64,000 bases of DNA from Halichondria panicea (Eukaryota; Porifera; Demospongiae; Suberitida; Halichondriidae), in the NCBI RefSeq assembly GCF_963675165.1, contig NC_087381.1:6263378-6327377 (forward strand), written 5' to 3'. The notes beneath the pieces are model-generated. The model was given only the letters and a program-made list of their open reading frames with translations, was not told where the DNA came from and made no database searches. Position numbers and translations under genes: made by a program. This document shows positions 4,629 to 58,960 of the stretch, in pieces; position 1 is the first letter of the stretch, and every line of letters begins with the position of its first letter.

Positions 4629-4703
4629 CACTAACCGTATGACCGCATTTCCATAGACTCTATATGCTCTTGCTATCGCAACTAAACAAAAGAACACAGG
4701 AGG

Positions 4704-4761
4704 ATGGGAGTTTCAAGTCAACTTCTACTAACATTGATCGTCTTGCTCAATTCCACTGCTG
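4704..4761 (+). CDS. Exon 1: signal peptide
   Basis: It encodes MGVSSQLLLTLIVLLNSTAG, a short polar start and a hydrophobic core, and stops at the donor GTAAGAC in phase 1. The phase-1 acceptor at 10945 adds GLAQ then VECY, a plausible signal-peptidase site. The ATG context is AGGAGGATGG. No competing signal-like exon was seen between here and 10946. Confidence 0.65.
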
Positions 4762-7700
4762 GTAAGACACTGATTTTACACTGAAAATATTATGTTGAGG
4801 ACTGTTGTGTCAATATAAAATTAATGCAGAAATATATTTACAATGTGGTAGGACATACTATGCTTCCAGTGTTATTATAGACTCGCAATCCGTTAATGTT
4901 GCACGGCGAACAGTAGACTGGTCAAACTCTGTGCAGAAACTCATGCAACATTTCCCACGATATTTGTGGCAACTCGATCAAGTGGCTATATATATAGACT
5001 GCATGCGGTTACTGTGCACAAGATCATTGATAATGACGTACAACTTAGCTAAAAGTATCACGTGTAGTAGACTGACGTCATGAAAACCACAGCCACTTCG
5101 AAATATTCTGACTGTGCAACACGAGTTTCTACATGGAGTTTGACTAGTCAATTTTTCGCCGTGCAACAGTGACAGCTTGCTATACCGTATAGCGGGTAAT
5201 TTTCGTGGGCAGGCTGACCTCCACGAAATTTTATCGTAGGCGTGGCTTATCTGAACGTAGGAATGCCGTGCAGCCACGAGACTAAATGAAATTTTTACTC
5301 ACGAAAACTACCGTTTCTCGAGTTGAACGAATTTTTTACCCCACGAAACTTACCCGCTATACGGTAGTCTATAGGTGTTATAATGTGATATCATTATTTT
5401 TCATAATTTTAAGTCTGGAGGAAGTTATTGACATTGGGTCAGGCAAAAAAACAGACTGTCCATGCAGGAGGTGGGTACGGGATGGGGAGGGTCCAACAAA
5501 GAGTCCAATAAAAGAGAGACAGACTAATTATTCTACTTTGATTAGTGTCTCTGAAAGCTGCCATTGTGGTCACATTGTCATATGTATTCTTTTGTAACTT
5601 TGTCCGTTTTTTACAATTTGTGTGATGAAATTGTTGTCAATTATTTCGCGCATGCATGCGCATACAAGGTATACCAGGCCGCTTTTCTCTTCGCGGCCTG
5701 GAATCGAGGCTAGTATGACTTGTACACCTCCGCCCTCGTGGTCGGGAGGTTTACTGTGTATTTGCAGCCCTGAATAGTGGACATCTCGAAACTCCGAACA
5801 AAGGACGATGTAATTGTATGTACATGCAATCTGCAAAAAAATGGTGTCCCCTACCTGTATCTGCTGCACCACATTGCTTGCTAGTGAGAGCTGAATTTGG
5901 CACTTGTTATCTATATGAGTTTTTATACTAGAAGCCATTGTTGAATTGATATGTCTATCTGATTAACCGTCAAACCCCCCACCTGTTTTGATGGCTTTAT
6001 TTAGGCTAAACAAGGGGTGGGCGGATATTTAATTATGTGGCTACTATAAAACCGTGCAAGCGCCCATCCATGCAAGACAGTTATGCTGTATTTTCTGTGA
6101 AAACTACACAGCTCATCTTCTGTACAGTTACAGATCACGGAAGACACTCTGCCACAATAGAGAAGGGGGTCTGAGCTGGAAATAGACATGTGTTTTGGTG
6201 TTCAGAGGAAAGTTCAAACAGTCTCATCTTAGGATTGTGCTGTTGACACACACACCTTGTTGTTTCCCCGTGAGAGGGAGAGGATGTCCCCGTTGATAGA
6301 CCAGCTCGCTTGATGTCTGTTCTAGGATAGTCTAGGGGCCAGCTGGACCTATAATAGCTCAGAGGCAAAATCAAGATAGTTAGGATTAGGTCTGAAAACT
6401 CTTGCAGCATTTCCGTGTGCTCTAGCGGAATGTGGCCAGAGCCAATGAAATGCATATCCTATGTAATGTGATTTTTAACCCAATGAAATGTGAGTATTGC
6501 CTCTGTGGAATTTGGATTACAGCCAATGGAATTTAGATACAACCAATGAGTATTGTTACATCTACTCCTTTATAACCTCCAATGTCACAAGTTTCCCACT
6601 AATTGACATTCCAAGAGCACACGTAAGTGCTGCAAGAGTCTCCAGACCTCTTTCTCTCTTCCCCCTCCCCCCTCTGAGAAAAGGTCTGGCCCCCAGACCA
6701 GTTCTAGGATAGATCTAACAAGATTGTATAGGTCTATATAATTATAGATAGTCCTAGTAACTTTTAAAATATTGTTTTGTGCACATCTATGAGCTAGCTA
6801 GCTATTTTAATAGCTACACACAGTGAAAATATTGACCTCTGACCCTCATGCGCAATAGTGGGCGCTTCTATATGATTGCAATTAGGCCTCTCAAGAGCGC
6901 ATAAAAGAGAGAGAGCGTGTAAAACTTCCGTCTGCTACAGTACGGGCAGAACCCAAAACCACTACTATAAATAGAACTATATGCATGGTCACGTGGGACT
7001 ACATTCCATGCACATGCAGCAGTGAGCAATTTCAAGAATTGTTCTTTTTATAGTAGTGGTTTTGGATTCTGCCCGTACTGTAGAGGATGCGTAAGTTACA
7101 CGCTCTCTCTCTTTTATGCGCTCTTGGCCTCTACTGGACTTTCGGGCAATAGTATGGGATGGGCGGTTCGACGGTTAACTACGGTATTAGCCTCGATTCA
7201 AGGCCGATTAAAATACGGCCTGGTACCTATTGCAGGGGTGATAGTGCGCATGCGCTTCAAATTACCCAGAATAATTATGGGTATCGTACTACGAACGTAA
7301 AATCTTAGTAAATTACACAGGAAATTAGTCCGTTTACTAAGCCGTATAATACTTTAAATCTATGACTGAGTTCTGTGAAGCTGTGGCTTATGCCGTCTAT
7401 TGCGTTGGTCTATAGAAGGCTTGAACACTAGTTTTAAGACAGAAGAGGCTCTCATCTACGTCTAAGATGGTCCTATAGCCGAGTTGTTTTCGCAAGTAGC
7501 AGTTTGAGGCACCATACACTTCCCATAGCCTGTACAGATCCAAGGTAAGACATCCTGACCATACAACCGTCCCTAGTAGAGGTAGATGAGAGCCTCTTCT
7601 GGCTTCAGACTAACGTGAAAGCCTTCTGAAACAACGCAATAGAGAGCTAAGCTGATGTACAAAGATAGAAAATAGATGAGAGAAAAAGAATGGGATTCCC

Positions 7701-10700
7701 CAGATTCTGGAGAATAAACTAACACATGCAATAAGTACCAAGCCGTATTTTAATCGGCCTGGAATAGAGGCTACTACGGTATAAATAATATTATACATTA
7801 TACATGTATCCATCATAGATAGAAGAGGAAGAGTTGGAAACGCAGGGATGTTATTGTTAGTGTAGTATTTTGCAAGATCTACAAAACAGCTGTTGTTTCA
7901 ACGATTGTTGTAGTACAGTTGTTTTAACACCTTTTGACTTCTGAGATCAAAGGAAATGCAGTGCCAATAAAATTGTGGCATATTGCACTGTGGTCAGTTC
8001 CAAGGCCGTAGCAAGCGGTCAGGCTTGTCAGGTTTTGGTCTGACCACTTTTTGGAGCTATAAGTAGGTAATGATCGTGATTATTGAAAATTGGATAATGG
8101 TGTCCGTAATGGTCGTCAATATTGTAATCGATTAGTAAAGCAGTTAACCGCAAAATTTACCTTGGCCTGACCACTCTAAACTTGCTTGCTACGCCCTTGA
8201 GTTCTGTGTATGGCACACATAAAAATATGACCATTCAGTGAAGTGCCCACACTCTCACCAAACAGTCAAGTCATTGCTTTATAGTGAAACACTCCGAGAC
8301 AGTTACGGTTCCTGTGGTAAATTTACTATAGACAGCATAATTATGCATGCATGGTTTCGATGCAGTTAGCGACTGTAACTGATTTGTTCCGTGGGAGAAG
8401 CATAGTTATCACACATTATGCATTCCTTATTTTGATACTACAATATAAAACAGATCATTCCAACTTTCATCCGAGCTTTCTGGCTGTGCAAATAATTATA
8501 TGGCTGTAGCTAGTAACTTGTTAGCTTTAATGTACCAGTGGCAGCCATATATTTGCACTGTGGTTTCTTGCTTAAACGTGTATAACAAGCATTATTATAT
8601 TACGCCCCGAGGTGTAGCCGCATGTATGTGTGTGTATATTCCAGCTGTAACTGCTCAACGGTTACAATATAATTATAGCATAATAATCATAAGCTAACAG
8701 AATGTGTGTCCTATACAATACTTACATAATTATTACTACAACTTAATAATAGTATTATGTGTCGGTGCAAATGCACTAGCGAGGTACATTAGACTCTCTC
8801 GATAATCCGGTCACCTTTGGGACAGTGCAGCTTGGCTGGAATATAGCGAGGTGGCTGTATTTCTAAGTGCAATCCAATTTTATCTGCCAAACAACATCCA
8901 AAACGTCATATCCGGCCGTAATAAACGTACAATGAAAACCTAGCCGGTTTGCCAGCCAGTATTGGCCATATAAAATAGCGAATGGCCGCATTTCAGGGTG
9001 AGTTTTGTGCAGTAAACTTCTAGCTAGCAATCCGTGCCAAACCAATGGCTGGTATATCGAGGTAGCCGTGCTTCAGAGAGCCGGAATAGCGAGAGTCTAC
9101 TGTATAATTTATGGTAGTGTGTCTGTGTGTCTGTGTGTGTAAACTACTACAGCTGCTCAAAGAGCAAGTAAGCTAGAGTTTCCGTCTTCTAGTCATGTTT
9201 TCAATTCGTGGATTTGCAAATTAATAATGCTTCGTTCTCGTTACTAAGAATACCATTGCAGCCTTTTCAGAAGAGTGTGTAGCTCACCCCAGATATATAT
9301 CTCTCACACGTGCAAACTCTGGTGGCGAGTTCTTCTAATCAGTCAGTCACAAGTTTCAACGTCTATACACTATATATACCCACCCCCAGGAGAGACTATA
9401 GATATGGTTGCCATCGTGTGTCCGATCGTATAACGTGTGATGTATAACTATCACTCGTCTCATTCGATCCACCTGAAAAGGTTCTCAAGGATTATCGCAC
9501 GCATCACACTCACTATATCTGCCTCTTCTTACATAGCAAACAATTATGTGTGTAAAGAAGAACGCGTCTGATTATGCTCTGGAATTTCCACTTGTGTCTC
9601 AGGCGGTGGAGGAATCGTTCTATGTGGATGATGGCTAACAGGTGCTGACTCCATTGAAATGGCCCTATAGAAGCTATCAACAAAGGCGGATTCCTGTTGA
9701 AAATGGAATTCGAGCGAAGCTATTGTCTTTAAAAACGTTGAACCCAGAACTGCACGCTTTTACTGAAGCGACGAGCACACGAAGACTCTAGGAACAGAGT
9801 AGAATGCATATCTCAATCAATTTTCGATTGGTAGTCGCGAAATTGTATGTATGTTCACAAGAAAATATAGCGAACATCTTCAGTGGTGATTGACATCAAC
9901 GCTGAGGAATATTGATCAAACAATTGCGTCACTGAATCAAATAAAACCATGTATAGCTACAATTCATAAACTATTATACACAATTCATGGTGTACATGAC
10001 TGTGCAGTTTTATGGGATTTTATGCAGTCAGCCCAGCTAGTCAATCACACACTAATTAATGCTGTTTTATGACCACTCATAATTTTTAATTCATGCATGG
10101 AAACAGTCAAAAACAAGTAAGAAGCTTACCTTTACAGTACTCAATGATCAGATCTGCTTCATGCTTGGAAGCTGAAAATATGACGCTGCATGGTATATAC
10201 AGTGACCGCACTAAAATGTATTGCTGTCTTTTTTGACACAGTGTAGTGTGGTCTCTGTAAGGCCATAATTATATCTCGACTGATGTCTCCAACTGTAGCT
10301 ATTATGATGAGCTACCTGGCTATGACAGTCACAGTTGCTTTTGAATAATCTCTTCTACACAATACAGTCCTAAAGTCAACTCTCTTTCTCGAACTAACTC
10401 AACCAATAGCATAAATAAATGCATGTACGGCATATATTTACATTAAACTTTCGGATCTTGGCCGTTCGACTGCAGCTAGCCAACTATACTACTATAGGTA
10501 CATAGAATGAGCATAAAAACGAGCTCTATCACTGATATCTTGATGATGAAAAGAGACGAAGAGCAGGTATTAAAATTGCAGTTACTATATATATACCATT
10601 TGCATGCTATAATACGCATAAATTAACAACAAAGAGGCTGCATGCATGCACGGTGATAAAAACCACACCATTTGTTGTGAAGAGCTGTCAGACATACATG

Positions 10701-17401: not shown

Positions 17402-18056
17402 AGCTATGTAATTGTAATTTATAACTATAATATTATAGCACTTATACGGAAACTGATAGCTAGTAATGTAATGGTGAGTTTTAATTCTTCTCCTCTTCCT
17501 CCTCACTATATATGTTTTGTAATTATTGTAATTTTGTACACTAAAATGGGTTAATTAATACATGCATGCAGGAGAGACACTGTGATGTACATTAATGTTA
17601 CTATTATAAACGGATTAATTTTAGCAAATTTGTAATTGACGCTAAATTATGTTCGTGATAATAATGAATCTCATTAAATGTACTTTGAGTTTACTTTTAC
17701 AAGAACTGTGTGCTGGCTCCCACCAGATGTGTTGATAAAGTGTGATAACTATAGCGAACAACCCAGTAGCCTACACAAAATACTTCGGATAGAAAGCATA
17801 ATATTTGCGTGTTATTTTTGATCCTATGTGACCATTATTTTATTCTTATCCCATATATAGTTACATTGAAGGCTCTAATTTCCAACATGACAAGATAAAA
17901 GGAAATCCTGGTATTAAAATTTGTGAAATTAATGTTATTCATAGCGTGTCTAATTACTCGCAAGTGGCATTTTCCAATATCTGTGACTACAAATTTTTGC
18001 GATTTATTCTCATACACAGAAAATTAATGGCAGAAATTAATTACCCTTATGTCACC
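17402..18056. other. Left block of a segmental duplication
   Basis: 17402-17690 shows no gene. From about 17700 (AAGAACTGTGTGCTGG) to 18056 (CTTATGTCACC) the sequence matches 56980-57370 with small indels. That second copy runs straight on into the sequence that here lies beyond 24101. Confidence 0.7.
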
Positions 18057-18160
18057 GGTAGGTTGGTACTTGATATAAGACTCACGAATATAGCTGAATC
18101 AGCAATAAACTACAATATAATTACAGTAGTTCCTACAGTTCCACGGATCCACAATTCCAT
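18057..18160. repeat. Left terminal inverted repeat of the foldback element
   Basis: Non-satellite DNA (AGACTCACGAATATAGC, AATTACAGTAGTTCCTACAG) that matches the reverse complement of 23998-24100 with about one difference, so the two ends have stayed homogenised. Confidence 0.9.
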
Positions 18161-21100
18161 GGTTCCACCGTTCCATGGTTCCATAGTTCCATGGTTCCAC
18201 AGTTCCATGGTTCCACCGTTCCATGGTTCCATGGTTCCACAGTTCCATGGTTCCACCGTTCCATGGTTCCATGGTTCCACAGTTCCATGGTTCCACAGTT
18301 CCATGGTTCCACCGTTCCATGGTTCCATGGTTCCACCGTTCCATGGTTCCATGATTCCATGGTTCCACCGTTCCACCGTTCCATGGTTCCATAGTTCCAT
18401 GGTTCCATGGTTCCACCGTTCCACCGTTCCATGGTTCCATAGTTCCACCGTTCCATGGTTCCACAGTTCCATGGTTCCACTGTTCCATGGTTCCATGGTT
18501 CCACAGTTCCATGGTTCCACCGTTCCATAGTTCCATGGTTCCACAGTTCCACCGTTCCACAGTTCCATGGTTCCACAGTTCCATGGTTCCACAGTTCCAT
18601 GGTTCCACCGTTCCATGGTTCCATGGTTCCATAGTTCCATGGTTCCATAGTTCCATGCTTCCATAGTTCCATGGTTCCACAGTTCCATGGTTCCACAGTT
18701 CCATGGTTCCACCGTCCATGGTTCCATAGTTCCATGGTTCCACCGTTCCATGGTTCCATGGTTCCACAGTTCCATGGTTCCACTGTTCCACCGTTCCATG
18801 GTTCCATGGTTCCACAGTTCCATGGTTCCACCGTCCATGGTTCCATAGTTCCATGGTTCCACAGTTCCATGGTTCCACCGTTCCATGGTTCCATAGTTCC
18901 ATAGTTACATGGTTCCACCGTTCCATGGTTCCATGGTTCCATAGTTCCATGGTTCCACGGTTCACAGTTCCATGGTTCCACAGTTCCATGGTTCCACAGT
19001 TCCATAGTTCCACCGTTCCACCGTTCCATGGTTCCATGGTTCCACCGTTCCATGGTTCCATGGTTTCATAGTTCCATGGTTCCACCGTTCCATGGTTCCA
19101 CAGTTCCATGGTTCCACCGTTCCATGGTTCCATGGTTCCATAGTTCCATGGTTCCACGGTTCACAGTTCCATGGTTCCACAGTTCCATGGTTCCACAGTT
19201 CCATAGTTCCACCGTTCCACCGTTCCATGGTTCCATGGTTCCACCGTTCCATGGTTCCATGGTTTCATAGTTCCATGGTTCCACCGTTCCATGGTTCCAC
19301 AGTTCCATGGTTCCACAGTTCCATGGTTCCACCGTTCCACCGTTCCATAGTTCCATGGTTCCACAGTTCCATGGTTCCACAGTTCCATGGTTCCACCGTT
19401 CCACCGTTCCATAGTTCCATGGTTCCACAGTTCCATGGTTCCACAGTTCCATGGTTCCACCGTTCCATGGTTCCATAGTTCCATGGTTCCACAGTTCCTG
19501 GTTCCATAGTTCCACAGTTCCATGGTTCCACCGTTCCATGGTTCCACCGTTCCATGGTTCCATGGTTCCATAGTTCCATGGTTCATGGTTCCACCGTTCC
19601 ATGGTTCCATGGTTCCACAGTTCCATGGTTCCACCGTTCCACCGTTCAACCGTTCCACCGTTCCATGGTTCCATAGTTCCATGGTTCCACCGTTCCATGG
19701 TTCCACAGTTCCATGGTTCCACCGTTCCATGGTTCCATGGTTCCACCGTTCCATGGTTCCATGGTTCAATAGTTCCATGGTTCATGGTTCCACAGTTCCA
19801 TGGTTCCACAGTTCCATGGTTCCACCGTTCCACCTTTCCGCCTTTCCACCGTTCCACTGTTCCACCGTTCCATGATTCCATGGTTCCGTAGTTCCATAGT
19901 TCCTACAGTTCCATGGTTCCACAGTTCCACGGTTCCATGGTTCCATGGTTCCATAGTTCCATGGTTCCATGGTTCCACGGTTCCATAGTTCCATGGTTCC
20001 ACAGTTCCATGGTTCCACCGTTCCATGGTTCCATAGTTCATGGTTCCATAGTTCCATGGTTCAACAGTTCCATGGTTCCACCGTTCCATGGTTCCACCGT
20101 TCCATGGTTCCACGATTCCATAGTTTCATGGTTCCACAGTTCCACCGTTCCAAGCGTTCCATGGTTCCACCGTTCACGGTTCGAAGGTTTAATGGTTCCA
20201 AGTGTTCCATGGTTCCAAGCGTTCCATAGTTCCACAGTTCCATGGTTCCACTGTTCCACAGTTTCATGGTTCCACGGTTCCATGGTTCCATAGTTCCATG
20301 GTTCTATGGTTCCATAGTTCCAAGCGTTCCATGGTTCCATGGTTCCAAGCGTTCCATAGTTCCATGGTTCCATAGTTCCATGGTTCCACCGTTCCACAGT
20401 TCCATGGTTCCACGGTTCCATGATTCCAAGCGTTCCATGGTTCCACAGTTCCATGGTTCCACAATTCATAGTTCTATAGTTCCAAGCGTTCCATGGTTCC
20501 AAGCGTTACATGGTTCCAAGCGTTCCATGGTTCCAAGCGTCCATGGTTCCACATCTATGGTTCCACGGTTCCATGGTTCTACGGTTCCATTGTTCCACGG
20601 TTCCATGGTTCCACAGTTCCATGGTTCCACGGTTCCACGGTTCCACGGTTCCATGGTTCCACAGTTCCACGGTTCCATGGTTCCAAGCGTTCCATGGTTC
20701 CACAGTTCCATGGTTCCATTGTTCCACAGTTCCATGGTTCTATGGTTCCATAGTTCCATAGTTCCAAGCGTTTCATGGTTCAAAGCGTTCCATGGTTCCA
20801 TAGTTCCAAGCATTCCATGATTCCTACTGTTCCATGGTTCCAAGCGTTCCATGGTTCCATAGTTCCAAGCGTTCCATGATTCCATGGTTCCACAGTTCCA
20901 CGGTTCCATTGTTCCACAGTTCCATGGTTCTATGGTTCCATAGTTCCATAGTTCCAACCGTTCCATGGTTCCATAGTTCCAAGCGTTCCATGATTCCATG
21001 GTTCCATAGTTCCAAGCGTTCCATGGTTCCATGGTTCCACAGTTCCACGGTTCCATGGTTCCAAGCGTTCCATGGTTCCACAGTTCCATGGTTCCATTGT

Positions 21101-21786
21101 TCCACAGTTCCATGGTTCTATGGTTCCATAGTTCCATAGTTCCAAGCGTTTCATGGTTCAAAGCGTTCCATGGTTCCATAGTTCCAAGCATTCCATGATT
21201 CCTACTGTTCCATGGTTCCAAGCGTTCCATGGTTCCATGGTTCCACAGTTCCACGGTTTCATGGTTCCAAGCGTTCCATGGTTCCACAGTTCCATGGTTC
21301 CATTGTTCCACAGTTCCATGGTTCTATGGTTCCATAGTTCCATAGTTCCAACCGTTCCATGGTTCCATAGTTCCAAGCGTTCCATGATTCCATGGTTCCA
21401 TAGTTCCAAGCGTTCCATGGTTCCATGGTTCCACAGTTCCACGGTTCCATGGTTCCAAGCGTTCCATGGTTCCACAGTTCCATGGTTCCATTGTTCCACA
21501 GTTCCATGGTTCTATGGTTCCATAGTTCCATAGTTCCAAGCGTTCCATGGTTCCAAGCGTTCCATGGTTCCATAGTTCCAAGCATTCCATGATTCCTACT
21601 GTTCCATGGTTCCAAGCGTTCCATGGTTCCATAGTTCCAAGCGTTCCATGATTCCTACTGTTCCATGGTTCCAAGCGTTCCATGGTTCCTACTGTTCCAT
21701 GGTTCCAAGTGTTCCATGGTTCCTACTGTTCCATGATTCCAAGTGTTCCATAGTTCCAAGCATTCCATTGTTCCAAGTGTTCCATG
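18161..21786. repeat. Left satellite arm (GTTCCA polarity)
   Basis: The first 2 kb use 8-bp units. From about 20150 a 9-bp variant, GTTCCAAGC, becomes frequent and arranges into higher-order repeats of about 380 bp (the landmark TTCATGGTTCAAAGCGTT recurs at 20771 and 21149, with a related block at 21543). An earlier higher-order unit of about 199 bp carries GGTTCCACGGTTCAC at 18951 and 19150. Confidence 0.9.
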
Positions 21787-21960
21787 ATTGTTGAACATTT
21801 TTAAAGGAACAGTGGGAACCATGGAACGCTGGGAACGAGGAACAGTATAGAAACCATGCACGGAACAGTAGGAACCATGGAACCATGGAAGAAAAATGAA
21901 AAGTTGGACCCATAGAACACTTAGAACCTAGAAACAGTAGGAACCATGGAACAGCAGGAA
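21787..21960. repeat. Turnaround between the satellite arms
   Basis: A short AT-rich spacer (ATTGTTGAACATTTTTAAAG) marks the polarity switch. It is followed by irregular units (CATGGAACGCTGGGAACG, AGGAACAGTAT) and a non-repeat patch near 21890-21930 (GAAAAATGAAAAGTTGG). Confidence 0.7.
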
Positions 21961-23997
21961 CTATGGAACGCTTGGAACCATGGAACTATGGAACCATGGA
22001 ACCTTGGAACGCTTGGAATACTTGGAACTATGGAACCATGGAACCCTTGAAACTATGGAACCATGGAACCATGGAACGCTTGGAACTGTGGAACCATGGA
22101 ACTATGGAACCATGGAACGCTTGGAACGGTGGAACTGTGGAACCATGAAACTATGGAACCGTGGAACCATGGAACGCTTGGAACGGTGGAACGGTGGAAC
22201 CATGGAACCATGGAACGGTGGAACCATGGAACTGTGGAACCATGGAACTATGGAACGGTGGAACGGTGGAACGGTGGAACGGTGGAACGGTGGAACGGTG
22301 GAACGGTGGAACGGTGGAACGGTGGAACCATGGAACCATGGAACGGTGGAACCATGGAACTGTGGAACCATGGAACCGTGGAACCATGGAACCATGGAAC
22401 GGTGGAACCATGGAACTATGGAACCATGGAATGCTTGGAACGGTGGAACTGTGGAACCATGAAACTATGGAACCGTGGAACCATGGAACGCTTGGAACGG
22501 TGGAACGGTGGAACCATGGAACCATGGAACGGTGGAACCATGGAACTGTGGAACCATGGAACTATGGAACGGTGGAACGGTGGAACGGTGGAACCGTGGA
22601 ACCGTGGAACCGTGGAACCGTGGAACCGTGGAACCGTGGAATCATGGAACCATGGAACCATGGAACGGTGGAACCATGGAACTGTGGAACCATGGAACTA
22701 TGGAACCGTGGAACCATGGAACCATGGAACGGTGGAACCATGGAACTGTGGAACCATGGAACTGTAGGAACTATGGAACCATGGAACGGTGGAACGGTGA
22801 AACCATGGAACTGTGGAACCATGGAACTATGGAACGGTGGAACCATGGAACTGTGGAACCATGGAACTGTGGAACCATGGAACCATGGAACTGTGGAACC
22901 ATGGAACTGTGGAACCATGGAACCATGGAACTATGGAACGGTGGAACGGTGGAACGATGGAACGGTGGAACCATGGAACTATGGAACCATGGAACGGTGG
23001 AACGGTGGAACCATGGAACTGTGGAACGGTGGAACCATGGAACTGTGGAACCATGAAACTGTGGAACCATGGAACTATGGAACGGTGGAACCATGGAACG
23101 GTGGAACCATGGAACCATGGAACTATGGAACCATGGAACGGTGGAACGGTGGAACCATGGAACTGTGGAACCATGAAACTGTGGAACCATGGAACTATGG
23201 AACGGTGGAACCATGGAACTGTGGAACCATGGAACTGTGGAACCATGGAACCATGGAACGGTGGAACCATGGAACTGTGGAACCATGGAACTGTGGAACC
23301 ATGGAACTATGGAACGGTGGAACCATGGAACTGTGGAACCATGGAACGGTGGAACCATGGAACCATGGAACGGTGGAACCATGGAACTGTGGAACCATGG
23401 AACTGTGGAACCATGGAACTGTGGAACTGTGGAACCGTGGAACCATGGAACGGTGGAACGGTGGAACTGTGGAACCATGGAACGGTGGAACCATGGAACT
23501 GTGGAACCATGGAACCGTGGAACCATGGAACCATGGAACGGTGGAACCATGGAACCGTGGAACCATGGAACGGTGGAACCATGGAACTGTGGAACCATGG
23601 AACTGTGGAACCATGGAACCATGGAACGGTGGAACCATGGAACTGTGGAACTATGGAACTATGGAACCATGGAACGGTGGAACGGTGGAACCATGGAACG
23701 GTGGAACCATGGAACTATGGAACCATGGAACCATGGAACAGTGGAACCATCGAACTGTGGAACCATGGAACTGTGGAACCGTGGAACTGTGGAACTATGG
23801 AACTGTGGAACCATGGAACTGTGGAACCATGGAACGGTGGAACCATGGAACCATGGAACCGTGGAACTATGGAACTGTGGAACCATGGAACTGTGGAACC
23901 ATGGAACTGTGGAACCATGGAACTATGGAACCATGGAACCATGGAACGGTGGAACCATGGAACTATGGAACCATGGAACCATGGAACGGTGGAACCA
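21961..23997. repeat. Right satellite arm (TGGAAC polarity)
   Basis: It is the reverse complement of the left-arm motif, including a homogeneous run of eight or more GGAACGGT units at 22250-22325 and of GGAACCGT units at 22595-22645. It is shorter than the left arm by about 1.5 kb, so the element would fold with an unpaired left segment. Confidence 0.9.
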
Positions 23998-24100
23998 TGG
24001 AATTGTGGATCCGTGGAACTGTAGGAACTACTGTAATTATATTGTAGTTTATTGCTGATTCAGCTATATTCGTGAGTCTTATATCAAGTACCAACCCACC
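23998..24100. repeat. Right terminal inverted repeat of the foldback element
   Basis: Mirrors 18057-18160 (ends TCTTATATCAAGTACCAACC). Immediately beyond it, AGTATAATTATAGTAA matches the duplicate locus at about 57372. Confidence 0.9.
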
Positions 24101-24261
24101 AGTATAATTATAGTAAATGCATCATTATGTGACAACTCGATATTCAATAGCTATAGCTATACGACCCTGGCTATAACAAAACAATAGCTATTATTATTAT
24201 AACACGTACTATTGTAGGATCTCAGTAATGTTATAGATCTACTCATTTCCCCCCATTCTTT

Positions 24262-25948
24262 TTAGAGCTTGTAAAGCATCAAGAAGAAGCTCAGCCAATT
24301 CTGTTTATCGGATTTATTCTTATTCCTCCAATCATCATAGTTAGTACTTGGAGGTGGAGCCTCTTGAAGTGGAGCGCCCGTAGTTACAGTGCCCAGGCCA
24401 GTAGGTGGAGCGCCCGTAGTTGCAGCGCCCAGGCTTGTAGGAAGAGTGTCCGTAGTTGCAGTGCCCAGACCTGTAGGTGGAGTGTCCGTAGTTACAGCGT
24501 CCAGGCCTGTAGGTGGAGTGTCCGTAGTTGCAGCGCCCAGGCCTGTAGGTGGAGTATCCGTAGTTGCAGCGCCCAGGCTTGTAGGTGGAGTGTCCGTAGT
24601 TACAGCGCCCAGGCCAGTAGGTGGAGCGCCCGTAGTTGCAGCGCCCAGGCTTGTAGGAAGAGTGTCCGTAGTTGCAGTGCCCAGACCTGTAGGTGGAGTG
24701 TCCGTAGTTACAGCGTCCAGGCCTGTAGGTGGAGTGTCCGTAGTTACAGTGCCCAGACCTGTAGGTGGAGTGTTCGTAGTTACAGTGTCCAGGCCTGTAG
24801 GTGGAGTGTCCGTAGTTGCAGCACCCAGGCCTGTAGGTGGAGTGTCTGTAGTTGCAGCGCCTAGGCTTGTAGGTGGAGTGTCCGTAGTTACAGCGCCCAG
24901 GCCAGTAGGTGGAGCGCCCGTAGTTGCAGCGCCCAGGCTTGTAGGAAGAGTGTCCGTAGTTGCAGTGCCCAGACCTGTAGGTGGAGTGTCCGTAGTTACA
25001 GCGTCCAGGCATGTAGGTGGAGTGTCCGTAGTTACAGCGCCCAGGCCTGTAGGTGGAGTGTCCGTAGTTGCAGCACCCAGGCCTGTAGGTGGAGTGTCTG
25101 TAGTTGCAGCGCCTAGGCTTGTAGGTGGAGTGTCCGTAGTTACAGCGCCCAGGCCAGTAGGTGGAGCGCCCGTAGTTGCAGCGCCCAGGCTTGTAGGAAG
25201 AGTGTCCGTAGTTGCAGTGCCCAGACCTGTAGGTGGAGTGTCCGTAGTTACAGCGTCCAGACCTGTAGGTGGAGTGTCCGTAGTTACAGCGCCCAGGCCA
25301 GTAGGTGGAGTGTTCGTAGTTGCAGCGCCCAAGCTTGTAGGAAGAGTGTCCGTATAGTTGCAGTGCCCAGGCCTGTAGGTGAAGTGTCCGTAGTTGCAGC
25401 GTCCAGGCCTGTAGGTGGAGCGCCCGTAGTTACAGCGCCCAGGCCAGTAGGTGGAGTGTCCGTAGTTGCAGCGCCCAAGCTTGTAGGAAGAGTGTCCGTA
25501 TAGTTGCAGCGCCTAGGCTTGTAGGAAGAGTGTCCGTATAGTTGCAGTGCCCAGGCCTGTAGGTGAAGTGTCCGTAGTTGCAGCGTCCAGGCCTGTAGGT
25601 GGAGTGTCCGTAGTTGCAGTGCCCAGACCTGTAGGTAGAGTGTCCGTAGTTACAGCGTCCAGACCTGTAGGTAGAGTATTCGTAGTTACAGCCCCCAGGC
25701 CAGTAGGTGGAGCGCCCGTAGTTACATGTAGGTGGAGTGTCCGTAGTTGCAGTGCCCAGGCTTGTAGGAAGAGTGTCCGTATAGTTGCAGTGCCCAGGCC
25801 TGTAGGTGAAGTGTCCGTAGTTGCAGCGTCCAGGCCTGTAGGTGGAGTGTCCATAGTTGCAGCGCCTAGGCCTGTAGGTGGAGTGTCCGTAGTTGCAGTG
25901 ACCAGGCCAGTAGGTGGAGTGTCCGTAGTTGCAGCGCCCAGGCTGCAT
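24262..25948 (-). repeat. 36-bp minisatellite encoding a Thr/Pro-rich 12-residue repeat
   Basis: About 45 units of 36 bp. On the minus strand the best frame reads TGLGAATTDTPP per unit, a mucin-like composition. Units at about 25351, 25497, 25529 and 25777 carry an extra TA, and one unit near 25725 lacks 11 bp; the changes sum to a multiple of three, so the outer frame is restored. Because the unit length is a multiple of three, several frames stay open on both strands, and only the minus-strand frame continuous with the upstream membrane-protein exon (LGPTGKGQYKKTEADF) has support. A related array is at 57641-58960. Confidence 0.8.
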
Positions 25949-26930: not shown

Positions 26931-27241
26931 TGTTAGAAGAAGTAATTGATCAAGTGGTAAACCACAAGTGTAGTGATTAGGTGAACTCTTCACTTAGACT
27001 GTACATCTAGATTATTCTAGTTAATGTTTGTTCTAGAACTGTAGCTGCTGCTGAACTTTGACATTAGAGAACTAGGTAGAACATTCTAGAGTTATATGTG
27101 TTCTGTATATAAGTTCTTGAGTTTTGTGCAAGCTAGGTTATGATTAGGTTATGATTAGGTTATGAGTGTTATGCTGTTTCTGTTGTCTACTACTGTTATT
27201 GAACAAAGTGTGACTAGTGTCAACTGCGATATCTGCGAACA
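26931..27241 (+). repeat. 5' LTR of the copia element
   Basis: 311 bp, TGTTAGAAG to GCGAACA. A TATATAAG motif near 27116 is the likely promoter core, and the unit TTAGGTTATGA is repeated three times just after it (about 27137-27170). Confidence 0.95.
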
Positions 27242-27255
27242 GGTTATGGGCCCAG
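27242..27255 (+). promoter_or_regulatory. Primer-binding site for an internal tRNA-iMet fragment
   Basis: GGTTATGGGCCCAG directly follows the LTR. It is complementary to the anticodon region (CTGGGCCCATAACC) of initiator tRNA-Met, the primer arrangement known from Drosophila copia, where a half-tRNA rather than the 3' CCA end is used. Confidence 0.85.
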
Positions 27256-27299
27256 ATCCCTACGGACTTATCACACTGAATTTTGTTCAAGACTAGACT

Positions 27300-30200
27300 A
27301 TGGCTACGACAGATGAGAAGTGGGTGATCGATAAGTTAGATGACTCTAACTGGACCACTTGGAAGTTCCAGATGAAACACTTGCTACTTGCAAAAGGTGT
27401 CTGGGAAGTTGTGGACGGAACCGAGGAGCTTGCAGAGGATGCGACAGCAGCAGCCCGTGCTGAGTTTTTGAAGAAGTCGCAGAAGGCATTCTCTTCAATT
27501 GTCCTGGCGATAAAAACTTCTCAGTTGTATCTTGTGACGTCGTATGAGCAGCCGAGAGAAGCTTGGGATGCCCTGAGAAACCATTTTGAGCGTGACACTC
27601 TAGCCAACAAACTTTTCCTGAAGAAGCAATACTTCCGGATGGAGATGAAGGAGGGGACATCGATCGAGAAACACCTGAAGCGCATGAAGGAGTTGACGGA
27701 CCGATTAGCAGCAATTGGTGCTCCTATCGCTGAAGAAGACCAGGTGGTTACTCTCTTAGGAAGCTTGCCCAAAAGCTACTCCACACTTGTTACTGCTCTG
27801 GAAGCCCGGGTTGACGGTATCTCGCTCAACTATGTGCAGCAAGCTCTAGCTCATGAGGAGCAGAAAATGCTTGGACGAGGACACTCAGGAAACTCTGATG
27901 CACAAAGAGGAGATGCAGCACTGTTTGGAGGAGAATCAAAGAGGAAATTCAAGCCACGGAAACCTATTTGCTATGGTTGTCAACAACCAGGTCATTTTCG
28001 ACGAGACAGTCCCAAAGCAAAGAAGGGACCATCACACAAGGCAGAGACTGCTGGAGAGGAAGACAAAGAATCCGAGTCTGAAGAAGGCAGTGCATTTGCA
28101 GCATCACAAGATGGATCTCAAGATGGTAAATGGCTGGTAGATTCTGGAGCATCCAGTCATATGACCTGGGACAGAGAACTGTTGACTGACTACCAAGAAT
28201 TTGAGGTTCCTGAGAAAGTTGGTTTAGGTGATGGACGGACTGTGGATGCAGTTGGTTTTGGAAGTGTTCACTTGAGGATGTGCTTCAAAGTTAGCCAACC
28301 AAAGAAATTTGTTATGTGCAAGGTTTTGTATGTTCCTAAGCTAGCCTGTAATCTTTTCTCGGTAAGAGCAGCTGTATCCAAAGGAGACTTCATCAAGTTT
28401 GGTCACTCTCGATGCTGGATTCGAGACGGAAATGGACATCTCCATGGAATGGGAACATTGGTGGATAAACTCTATCAACTCGATTGTGAAGCGATTCTCT
28501 CTGAGGCAGCAACACTGGTGAATGCTCAGAAAGACAACAATTTTGACGTATGGCATTTTAGACTGGGACATGCAAGTGAGCAATGCATCAAAAATATGTC
28601 CTACAAGAAGCTGGCTACTGGTATCAAATTACCAAAACGAGCTAAGCTGTCATTTTGTGAGGGATGTATCGCTGGAAAGATGAAACGAAAACCTTTCAAG
28701 GCAGTGGGAGAAATACGATCCAAGAGGAAGCTTCAACTTGTGCACAGTGACGTATGCGGTCCAATGCCTACGGACTCTATTGGTGGAAACAAGTATTTTG
28801 TCACTTTCATCGATGATTACTCAAGATGTTGTGCAGTCTACTTTCTCAAAAGTAAATCTGAAGTTCCTGAGAAATTTAAGGAATTTGAAGCTCGTGTATT
28901 CAATGACTGCAGTCAGAGAGTGAGTACATTGCGGAGCGATAACGGAGGAGAGTACCTGTCTAAGGAGTTTAGGAGCTATCTGAAGTCAAAAGGTATACGC
29001 CAGGAACTTACGGTACCACATTCTCCAGAACAGAATGGTGTTGCAGAGAGGATGAACAGAACCCTCATGGAGACAGCTCGGTCAATGATGGCTCATGCAG
29101 GATTACCTGAAAGATTTTAGGCTGAAGCTGTAGAAACGGCAGCGTACATCAGAAACCGTACTCCAACAACTGCTATCAAGGATACGAAGACACCAATGGA
29201 AGTCTGGAATGGAAACGTACCCAACATTGCAAACATGAAAGTGTTTGGCTGTATGGCATATGCACATGTACCTGATGTGCAGAGAAAGAAGCTCGATAAG
29301 AAAGCTGTGAAACTTCGGTTTGTCGGATATTCTATTCAGTCGAAAGCCTACAGACTGTTGGATGAGAAGACATCGAAAATCTATATTCGGAGAGATGTGA
29401 TCTTCAATGAGCAAGATTTTGGACAGAAAACAGAGGAAGTCGCTAAAGGTGATCTACTTGAAACAATTGAGGTAGAGCAAAACCCTGATATCGAATCAGA
29501 GACAGAGGAGGAGCAGGCTGAGTCAGAAGAGAGAAGACAATCTGAACGCACCAGACGACCTCCTGTTCGTTTTGGAATAGATGAGTATGCTGACACAGCT
29601 ACAGCCAGTATTCCACATGTGGCTTATGTAGCACATCAGATTGCTGAACCAAATACTATGGACGAAGCATTGGCAGGTGATCTCTCAAATGAGTGGAAAG
29701 AAGCAGCCGATTTGGAGTACGACTCACTCCTACAGAACGAGACATGGGATCTTGTGGAACTGCCAAGAGGAAGAGAAACGATTGGCAGTAAGTGGGTCTT
29801 CAAGATCAAGTACAAAGGAGATGGAGAGATAGAGAGGTTTAAAGCCCGACTAAAGATGCTTGAAAAATACAATCTTCAAGATGCTAAACCCGTCTCTACC
29901 CCTGCTGATTCAAATGTGAGATTACGAAAGGATGACAATGTTAGCAAGGCTGTGGTTTCAGTGATGTACCAATCGATAGTTGGAAGCTTGCTGTATGCTG
30001 CCGTTGCAACCAGACCCGACATTTCTCAAGCAGTGGGAGTCGTGTCAAAATTTAGCTCAAAGCCATCAGAAGCTCACTTAACTGCTGTGAAGCGAATTTT
30101 ACGATACCTCAAGGGAAGCTTGGACATTACTTTGCAATACAGGAAAACGGAGGATGGAAGTAGTCTGATTGGCTATTCTGATGCAGAGTATGCAGGTGAC

Positions 30201-30680
30201 TTGGATGACCGGCACTCAACGAGTGGGAATTTGTTTCTCATAAGTAACGGACCTGTCAGTTGGTTAAGCAAGAAACAACCAATTGTCACACTCTCTACCT
30301 GTGAGGCAGAGTATGTTGCCCTGAGTACAGCAACACAAGAAGCTGTTTGGATCAAAAGACTTCTATCGGATTTCCATGTATCACAGAAACAAGCAACCGT
30401 TATCATGGAAGATAATCAAGGAGCTATATGTATAGCTAAGAACCCAGTGGTACAGGCAAGGACAAAGCATATCGACATCCGCCACCACTATATTAGAGAA
30501 GCTGTCAGTGACGGCACAGTCAGTTTAGAGTACTGCCCTACCGAAGAAATGATTGCCGACATTTTTACGAAACCGTTACCCAAGGCAAAGTTTGAGAAGC
30601 TACGTCGTAACATGGGACTCAAGAAACTGATGTCTTCCCCACATGATAAATTAAGTGGGAGTGTTAGAAGAAGTAATTGA
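27300..30680 (+). pseudogene. copia gag-pol, interrupted and with an RT deletion
   Basis: A single frame from 27300 to the stop at 30678-30680. Gag is residues 1 to about 220 (WTTWKFQMKHLL). A zinc knuckle follows (CYGCQQPGHF...), but its last Cys is Ser (RRDSPK). Protease: WLVDSGASSHMT. The pre-integrase HHCC module is at about WHFRLGHAS to CEGCIAGK. The integrase keeps its acidic triad: HSDVCGP, RSDNGGE and QNGVAERMNR. An in-frame TAG at 29118-29120 stands where copia integrases have a Trp codon. The N-terminal RT motif (KWVFKIKYKGDGEIERFKARL) then jumps near 29852 to the C-terminal RT segment (KMLEKYNLQDAKPVSTP), losing the catalytic YVDD core in frame. RNase H is intact by motif (YSDAEYAGD, STCEAEY, TKHIDIRHH). 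It cannot reverse transcribe by itself. Confidence 0.9.
30651..30661 (+). promoter_or_regulatory. Polypurine tract of the copia element
   Basis: AAGTGGGAG directly precedes the TG of the 3' LTR, the usual site of plus-strand priming. It is short and has one pyrimidine. Confidence 0.65.
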
Positions 30681-30972
30681 TCAAGTGGTAAACCACAAGT
30701 GTAGTGATTAGGTGAACTCTTCACTTAGACTGTACATCTAGATTATTCTAGTTAATGTTTGTTCTAGAACTGTAGCTGCTGCTGAACTTTGACATTAGAG
30801 AACTAGGTAGAACATTCTAGAGTTATATGTGTTCTGTATATAAGTTCTTGAGTTTTGTGCAAGCTAGGTTATGATTAGGTTATGATTAGGTTATGAGTGT
30901 TATGCTGTTTCTGTTGTCTACTACTGTTATTGAACAAAGTGTGACTAGTGTCAACTGCGATATCTGCGAACA
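30662..30972 (+). repeat. 3' LTR of the copia element
   Basis: 311 bp, identical to the 5' LTR in a base-by-base reading, followed by the target duplication CTTTC and the continuation of the disrupted exon. Confidence 0.95.
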
Positions 30973-57640: not shown

Positions 57641-58960
57641 TTGAAGTGGAGCGCCCGTAGTTACAGCGCCCAGGCCTATAGGAAGAGTGCCTGTAGTTAC
57701 AGCGCCCAGGCTTGTAGTAAGAGTGCCTGTAGTTGCAGCGCCCAGGCCTGTAGGTGGAGTGTCTGTAGTTGCAGCGCCCAGGCCTGTAGGTGGAGTGTCT
57801 GTAGTTACAGCGCCCAGGCCTGTTGATGGAGTGTCTGTAGTTGCAATGCCCAGGCCTGTCTGTGGAGTGTCTGTAGTTGCAACGCCCAGGCCTGTAGGTG
57901 GAGTGTCCGTAGTTGCAACGCCCAGGCCAGTAGGTGGAGTGTCCGTAGTTGCAGCGCCCAGGCCTGTAGGTGGAGTGTCTGTAGTTGCAGCACCCAGGCC
58001 TGTAGGTGGAGTGTCTGTAGTTGCAGTGCCCAGGCCTGTAGGTGGAGTGTCCGTAGTTACAGCGCCCAGGCCTGTAGGTGGAGTGTCTGTAGTTGCAGCG
58101 CCCAGGCCAGTAGGTGGAGTGTCCGTAGTTGCAGCGCCCAGGCCTGTAGGTGGAGTGTCTGTAGTTGCAGCACCCAGGCCTGTAGGTGGAGTGTCTGTAG
58201 TTGCAGTGCCCAGGCCTGTAGGTGGAGTGTCCGTAGTTACAGCGCCCAGGCCTGTAGGTGGAGTGTCTGCATGTAGTTGCAACGCCCAGGCCTGTAGGTG
58301 GAGTGTCTGTAGTTGCAGCGCCCAGGCCTGTAGGTGGAGTGTCCGTAGTTACAGCGCCCAGGCCGTAGGTGGAGTGTCTGTAGTTACAGCACCCAGGCCT
58401 GTAGGTGGAGTGTCTGTAGTTGCAACGCCCAGGCCTGTCGGTAGAGTCCAGGGGCGAATCCAGCAGGTAGCATAGGGTGCTCAAGCACCCCCCTGACCTT
58501 GGACAAATTAATTATATTTGTGTCTCACTCATTGGTTGATGGAAGTCACTCAGACTTGGTACTAGCTAGCTGAGTAGCTGTAGACTTATCTAGTACAGTA
58601 GTATCTTTAAAAGCTGTGATAAAAGCAGCACTGCAGTGCAGACTAGGCTCGACAAGAATAGTGTGCAGTACAACACTTGCAAAATTACTTTATTATTGAC
58701 ACCGCACCTACCGGAAATGATGTCAAAAGGGGGCGTAACCCCGGATTTTCGCGCGCTACTGTCTCAAGGAGACTCTTGCAGCACCTACCTATCACTTTTT
58801 CTAGATCCGCCACTGTGGAGTGTCCGTAGTTGCAGCGCCCAGGCCTGTAGGTGGAGTGTCCGTAGTTACAGCGCCCAGGCTTGTAGGAAGAGTGCATGCC
58901 CGTAGTAGTTGCAGCGCCCAGGCCAGTAGGTGGAGTGTCTATAGTTGCCAGTCATTGCAA
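57641..58960 (-). repeat. Second 36-bp minisatellite (Thr/Pro-rich repeat), interrupted
   Basis: About 23 units in one block (57641-58447) plus three after an insertion (58816-58960). Minus-strand translation gives TGLGAATTDTPP units, as at 24262. The conserved C-terminal segment NYDDWRNKNKSDK is present but in a different frame from the repeats because of a 2-base difference (an extra TA near 57620), so this copy is a broken or alternative-frame tail. The membrane-protein exons found upstream of the other copy are missing here. Confidence 0.75.
58448..58815. mobile_element. MITE inserted in the minisatellite
   Basis: Ends CAGGGGCGAATCCAGCAGG and, inverted, CTAGATCCGCCACTG. It contains the TGCTCAAGCACCCC motif seen at other sites (about 36370 and 35630). 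The repeat array resumes immediately after it. The TIR type resembles hAT-derived MITEs, but no clean 8-bp target duplication is visible. Confidence 0.7.

Follow-up and report, generated by a model that had tools for sequence, protein, structure and literature searches.

A non-coding foldback transposable element with kilobase arms of an 8-bp satellite in the sponge Halichondria panicea

Can a stretch of DNA composed almost entirely of two opposed satellite arrays be a transposable element, and if so, what moved it? The question is raised by a 6-kb locus in the genome of Halichondria panicea (NCBI RefSeq assembly GCF_963675165.1), lying within the 64,000 nucleotides of contig NC_087381.1 analysed here (positions 6,263,378 to 6,327,377, forward strand; hereafter the window). 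A first-pass annotation, made from the letters alone, had proposed a foldback element with arms built of an 8-mer. From its ends, 8-bp target-site duplications and dispersed copies, we find that the locus is a genuine, non-coding foldback transposable element. We further put at roughly 85% the probability that it is a non-autonomous foldback DNA transposon moved by the transposase of a 14-kb relative.

The element, its copies and its arms

The element spans 6036 bp (window 18061-24096), close to the extent of 18057-24100 first proposed, and its parts, in window coordinates, are as follows.

18053-18060, no strand: left target-site duplication, CACCGGTA, 7/8 against the right flank
18061-18140, plus strand: left terminal inverted repeat, beginning GGTTGGTACTTG, 80/80 against the right end
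18155-21786, plus strand: left arm, an array of about 450 units of the 8-mer GTTCCAYN reading inward (Tandem Repeats Finder, unit counts)
21781-21945, no strand: asymmetric centre (turnaround), including the edges of both arms, found in other copies
21940-24002, minus strand: right arm, GTTCCAYN 8-mer in opposite polarity, about 256 units (Tandem Repeats Finder)
24017-24096, minus strand: right terminal inverted repeat, recognized by identity to the left end
24097-24104, no strand: right target-site duplication, CACCAGTA, from comparison of the flanks

Tandem Repeats Finder gave the left array as 449.9 copies of TTCCATGG over 3.6 kb and the right array, of opposite polarity, as 256.5 copies of GGAACCAT over 2.1 kb; together the two make up about 94% of the element. 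The word TTCCA occurs 406 times to the left of the split and never to the right, while TGGAA occurs 251 times to the right and never to the left (strand counts), bearing out the two opposed arms and single turnaround described in the first-pass annotation, whose length for the first arm also holds; the second arm had been given as 2.2 kb. The inverted ends, which it had put at about 100 bp with about one difference, are real, but the unique ends are 80 bp long and identical, and the perfect inverted match reaches 124 bp once the first array units are included. The apparent one-base difference arose because the flanking 8-mers are a nearly palindromic target duplication that lies outside the element and mimics additional inverted end. 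A flank match of 7/8 or better at that spacing is found at 19 of 45,697 position pairs in the window. The element has the structure of FB-like foldback elements, with long inverted repeats of short tandem units that meet at or near one centre. Elsewhere in the window, no 8- or 9-mer array found by the tandem-repeat scan exceeds 75 bp, and neither an Rfam match at gathering scores nor a tRNA was found.

The first-pass annotation had made its reading depend on the terminal repeat recurring elsewhere in the genome. We searched 131 Mb in 39 contigs, for which the counts from protein and repeat searches are lower bounds, and found at least 27 matches to a 110-base query containing the end. The first 15 bases of the end alone had at least 19 exact matches, compared with none for a reversed control; two exact matches appeared only in this 15-mer search (C4:5874536 and C13:307528) and lie outside the set of loci examined. 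Eighteen of the 27 end matches form nine inverted pairs, and a tenth pair (C2, 431 bp) came from scanning a fetched locus. Eight single end matches are left, of which two (L018 and L019) still adjoin an array. The copies are thus dispersed and bear target-site duplications: 6 of the 10 inverted pairs have flanking 8-bp duplications of 7/8 or 8/8. The duplication is perfect at C17:1654898-1660201 (GAAAAACT/GAAAAACT), at the 14-kb relative, C1:4676580-4690570 (GGAAATTT/GGAAATTT), and at C1:12104175-12107602 (AGGATCTC/AGGATCTC), where four end bases are missing on one side.

The flip in arm polarity is present in seven further copies elsewhere; in C5b, one arm has only five units' worth of TTCCA. 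In the C17 copy, the element's 165-bp centre recurs in reverse, with 161/165 positions identical; it lies on the same strand in L012 (159/165, versus 112/150 on the wrong strand) and is reversed in L013 (158/165, versus 109/148 on the wrong strand). Because the centre is so nearly identical in an oppositely oriented copy on another contig, the flip was inherited and is not a local assembly fault; nor is it an assembly error private to this locus, since seven other copies flip and three share the asymmetric centre.

The order of unit variants along the arms was compared between the window element and the C17 copy. Measured as z scores against shuffled units (25 shuffles each), the left arm of the window element agrees with the right arm of the C17 copy at z=21.7 and its right arm with the C17 left arm at z=16.1, compared with 9.2 and 10.0 for same-side pairs. 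The two are therefore sister copies inserted in opposite directions. Aligned end to end, they are 96.1% identical over 4705 aligned columns when one is reversed and 93.1% over 4997 columns in the other orientation, with many gaps, so units have been lost and gained besides base changes. Arms gain and lose units after insertion, and unit order remains partly legible between sister copies.

Two copies lie 14 kb apart on C13. One, C13a, is a normal insertion flanked by AGAAGCCC and AGAAGCCT. In C13b, the left flank recurs in mirror image beyond the right end, at 100% identity for 988 bp, after which the match ends. The left flank of C13a and that of C13b are 99.3% identical across the 3.2 kb compared, and the region C13:2042180-2067600 (L055, L011, L056, L057, L010 and L058) comprises a direct duplication of at least 3.2 kb and the mirrored 988-bp flank. 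The right end of C13b matches the left-end bases of C13a at 80/80 positions, versus 76/80 with the right end of C13a. Within C13b, the outer 900 bp of one arm are a 99-100% mirror image of the other (unit order z=59.5). This is most simply explained if a break laid bare a copy of the left end, which then folded back onto its array and was extended by copying through the end into the flank, a mechanism we infer from this structure. An assembly fault is possible, although a simple one is made less likely by the 0.7% divergence of the two direct flank copies.

The coding relative and related families

The 14-kb relative has the same ends and arms as the window element; its arrays measure about 2.0 and 3.4 kb and are separated by some 8.4 kb. 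On the minus strand between the arms lies an open frame of 903 amino acids (aa; L016:513-3221). The IS256 transposase model (NCBIfam) matched residues 260-354 of this protein (E=0.01) and the overlapping residues 292-393 of a 38%-identical relative (E=0.0068), both below cut-off. The matching stretches contain the shared motifs IDxCC and KLDxFHAVQRI, with DHTFK (D221) before them and NE (E418) after. The same 38%-identical relative matched HTH_Tnp_ISL3 (E=0.0036), and the C-terminal part of the 903-aa protein matched Peptidase_C65/OTU (E=0.002, below cut-off). Another relative matched MSL2-CXC (E=4.1e-5, 24.1 bits compared with a cut-off of 26.7), and the 903-aa protein retains most of its CXC cysteines. 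We therefore regard this protein as a putative DDE transposase with OTU-like and CXC-like parts, its D-D-E residues (D221, D312 and E418) being suggested by reading of the alignment. A search of solved structures with the alignment gave no matches, and one with the single protein gave one OTU chain (E=0.29); among viral contigs, 40 pattern matches to relatives were found and none was confirmed.

A second gene-like region, perhaps spliced, lies on the plus strand of the 14-kb element (L015 4071-7199). It includes a 66-bp tandem repeat and the P-loop-like sequence GPSETGKST, and C17:4103299 shares it at 92-94% identity. Pfam matches to these plus-strand gene pieces were all below cut-off.

The 903-aa protein had at least 28 genome matches, and we examined 11 loci; the matches at C17:2607772, C16:3394552, C8:3567713-3570497 and C1:10005492 lie outside these. 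Inverted 8-mer arrays flank the protein in the 14-kb copy. Fragments of diverged protein relatives, 29% and 44% identical, lie between inverted 9-mer arrays of two further families: at C15:3488453 (L045) the arrays are AGGTAATGT/AGGTAACAC and the fragment touches the right array, and at C1:5096335 (L059) arrays of GTAGCACTG surround a 45-residue protein match. A single array stands beside a protein relative at C1:5248812 (L039/L040), C23 (L043) and C8:3590903 (L050), and inverted 9-mer arrays without a protein match were found at L046, L047, L048 and L049. Inverted arms of 8-9-mers, of kilobase or sub-kilobase length, thus recur in at least three related families. The proportion of array-bearing loci is biased, because three of the six (L045, L050 and L059) were picked for an end match near the protein match; among the eight loci chosen by protein or by a full-length end pair, with arrays unknown, three bear arrays (C1:4684, C1:5248 and C23).

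A conserved GGTTGG terminus across the families was rejected, as the related families end in GGGTTGTTTCTCC and GGGTGCTTCTTGG. At C23, the transposase relative is split by an inverted-repeat element nested in it (L043 5316-7617), seemingly at a TA target, with 0.5-kb ends and, just inside these, short 8-mer arrays of AGGAAATG; this foldback was set aside as belonging to another family, its flanks fitting a TA duplication and its ends being different. The ends of the 9-mer families look modular, with an outer 44-bp and an inner 90-bp piece that occur both apart and together (C1:5253621-5253751 and 38 other places).

We propose that the window element most likely arose by deletion from a larger element with coding capacity, of which it would retain only the ends: the 80-bp terminal repeats, the inverted arrays of 8-bp units and a short centre. 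Its ends, duplications and dispersed copies show insertion by a transposase that makes 8-bp target duplications, most likely the 903-aa protein of the 14-kb relative, a candidate for the family's transposase because its gene lies between the arms of an element with the same ends and the same 8-bp duplication. By analogy with the repeats of Galileo, the arms are probably arrays of secondary transposase binding sites, and the GTTCCATG arrays may be read by the CXC or zinc-finger parts of the transposase. As a side effect, a broken end could fold back on such arms and prime mirror-image copying, which would yield a copy such as C13b.

Several observations weigh against this proposal. Transposition itself is read from assembled sequence. 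The duplications of the window element, C13a (C13:2062705-2064394) and C5b (C5:6442444-6444533) each have one mismatch, and 4 of the 10 pairs have no readable duplication (C4:4147433; the rearranged C13b, C13:2045382; C14:2619515, at 5/8; and C2:2027422). Five of the 11 protein loci have no 8-9-mer array in the fetched stretch (C17:4103299, C5:3981157, C10:4076893, C4:5570588 and C1:9953593, labelled L037/38, L041/42, L060, L061 and L062, with flanks seen over only about 2 kb for L060-L062). For the closest relative, C17:4103299, similarity to the 14-kb copy is confined to the interior of the latter (bases 4686-9093 in the joined stretch of 14.4 kb). No family matched the 903-aa protein above curated cut-offs, and an SDR oxidoreductase model matched elsewhere in it at E=0.015; this match is necessarily noise, and being near the strength of the IS256 match it marks the noise level. 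The two arms of the window element agree moderately in unit order (z=5.3). Finally, four array units, read inward, line up as GGTTCC, GGTAAC, GGTAGC and GGTTGC, with a core of GGTWNC that none of 150 shuffles reached with units of our own choosing; with Tandem Repeats Finder consensus units, 50/3000 or 422/3000 shuffles reached it, in two runs that used different units for the C23 family. Sequence support for the binding-site idea is therefore weak.

Alternative readings and the rest of the window

The alternative that survives best concerns the superfamily: the element may belong to Mutator, its transposase being too diverged for the Pfam model, to which we give slightly less than an even chance. 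Mutator elements (MULEs) make target duplications of 8-11 bp, a range that includes the 8 bp found here, and count among them Tm1 as well as FB/Rehavkus and Phantom. IS256 transposases are prokaryotic relatives of Mutator, and the weak IS256 matches fall in overlapping regions of two proteins. An hhalign comparison of the 903-aa family with a MULE of the same genome aligned in the expected register, but its E-value of 0.42 lay between those of two unrelated controls (0.53 and 0.14), and the MULE profile PF10551 matched at least 31 places in the genome, none of them the transposase gene. Most foldback elements are related to Mutator (PMC4079207), and Tm1 makes duplications of 8-10 bp, most commonly 9 bp (PMC3169594), against the 8 bp here, a length that also occurs in Tm1. 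Two other superfamilies gave negative results, both resting on sequence profiles alone: among the 53 genome matches listed for the KDZ profile PF18758 none lay at the transposase gene, with none in the Pfam protein scans either, and Pfam gave no THAP or P-type transposase match to the 903-aa protein (E≤1) or to five fragments of relatives (E≤10).

We consider it rather unlikely that these elements form an undescribed lineage of animal DNA transposons, perhaps a superfamily. Its transposase would combine a DDE core with an OTU-like protease and a CXC part, and its families would have evolved their own end arrays of 8- or 9-bp satellite binding sites, up to kilobases long and with a core near GGTWNC, making up a built-in generator of mirror-image chromosome rearrangements.

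Improbable, in our judgement, is that the arms act mainly as RNA, with read-through giving a long double-stranded RNA that triggers or escapes silencing. A hairpin RNA from the arms is possible: across the outer 1.8 kb of the window element, 100-bp windows of the opposed arms match at 73-100%, from which RNA pairing may be inferred. However, shuffled units attain the same match, and the arms of one copy are often not co-linear, with unit-order z scores of 1.2 for C13a, 2.7 for C4, 3.2 for C1b and 5.3 for the window element, against 11.3 for C17. This poor co-linearity gives no suggestion of selection for a precise hairpin. That the locus is an ordinary satellite inverted by recombination or misassembly, with ends that are chance or captured sequence, is very improbable: inverted arrays are a known assembly hazard and fill nearly all of the element, but identical ends and the flip recur at independent places, six pairs have 8-bp duplications, and three other copies have the asymmetric centre, reversed in two.

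Beyond the foldback element, the window contains a copia-type long terminal repeat (LTR) retrotransposon at 26931-30972, with gag, integrase and RVT_2 pieces. Its 311-bp direct repeats (26931-27241 and 30662-30972) are 100% identical, so its insertion was probably recent. Arrays of a 36-bp unit, open in several frames, occur at 24369-25943 and 57646-58447; they are about 87% alike over 1 kb, including about 190 bp preceding the array, and one starts about 270 bp past the foldback element. Both may belong to some repeated unit, coding or mobile. Genes in the window include IgGFc_binding and 7tm_2 domains.

Comparison with known systems

Short tandem units also build the arms of FB/NOF in Drosophila (about 10-31 bp in FB) and of TU in sea urchin (15 bp), likened here by description only. 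In the literature searched, outside which lie most subscription journals and Repbase Reports, we found no description of this element or of an OTU/CXC foldback transposase, and none of an 8-9 bp unit extending over kilobases or of such a design recurring, each time with another unit, among related families within a single genome. With coverage so limited, this does not show the element to be undescribed. A single genome here holds a coding copy, non-coding copies, sister copies with comparable repeat order and one copy that records a mirror-image rearrangement. Two questions thereby become testable: what makes the ends of transposons expand into satellites, and by what route those ends rearrange chromosomes.

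As the first-pass annotation had said of foldback elements with satellite arms, such systems are already known, and the papers on Galileo, Tm1, Tetris and Rehavkus-1_TC each describe features shared with the element in the window. Galileo, of the P superfamily in Drosophila, has long, internally repeated ends and both coding and non-coding copies and has been linked to chromosome inversions (PMC3688188, PMC3573991); in binding tests, the tandem repeats of its ends held extra transposase binding sites (PMC3688188). Its unit is about 210 bp, in two or three copies in D. mojavensis (PMC3573991), rather than an 8-mer in hundreds, and its transposase is of the P type with a THAP domain, which sequence profiles did not detect here. 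Tm1, a Mutator/Foldback element of root-knot nematodes, has composite, asymmetric ends with a variable number of short units, and MITE-like as well as coding members; it differs in its 14-bp unit, mostly 9-bp duplications and Phantom/Mutator-type transposase (PMC3169594), compared with 8-bp duplications, 8- or 9-bp units and kilobase arms here. Tetris, a foldback element of Drosophila virilis, shares tandem repeats in inverted ends, duplications of 8-9 bp and a link to satellite DNA, but has a 220-bp unit and no known transposase (PMC4079207). Rehavkus-1_TC of Tribolium, a 9.5-kb DNA transposon, likewise has satellite units in its inverted termini, but these are of 164 bp in mostly five and eight copies (PMC10218199), and the likeness is one of structure, not of protein. 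For some foldback elements only the ends, and no enzyme, have at times been known, as is described for Tetris and, at first, for Galileo (PMC4079207, PMC3573991); in the sponge elements, 8-9 bp satellites are tied to a candidate gene for the transposase.

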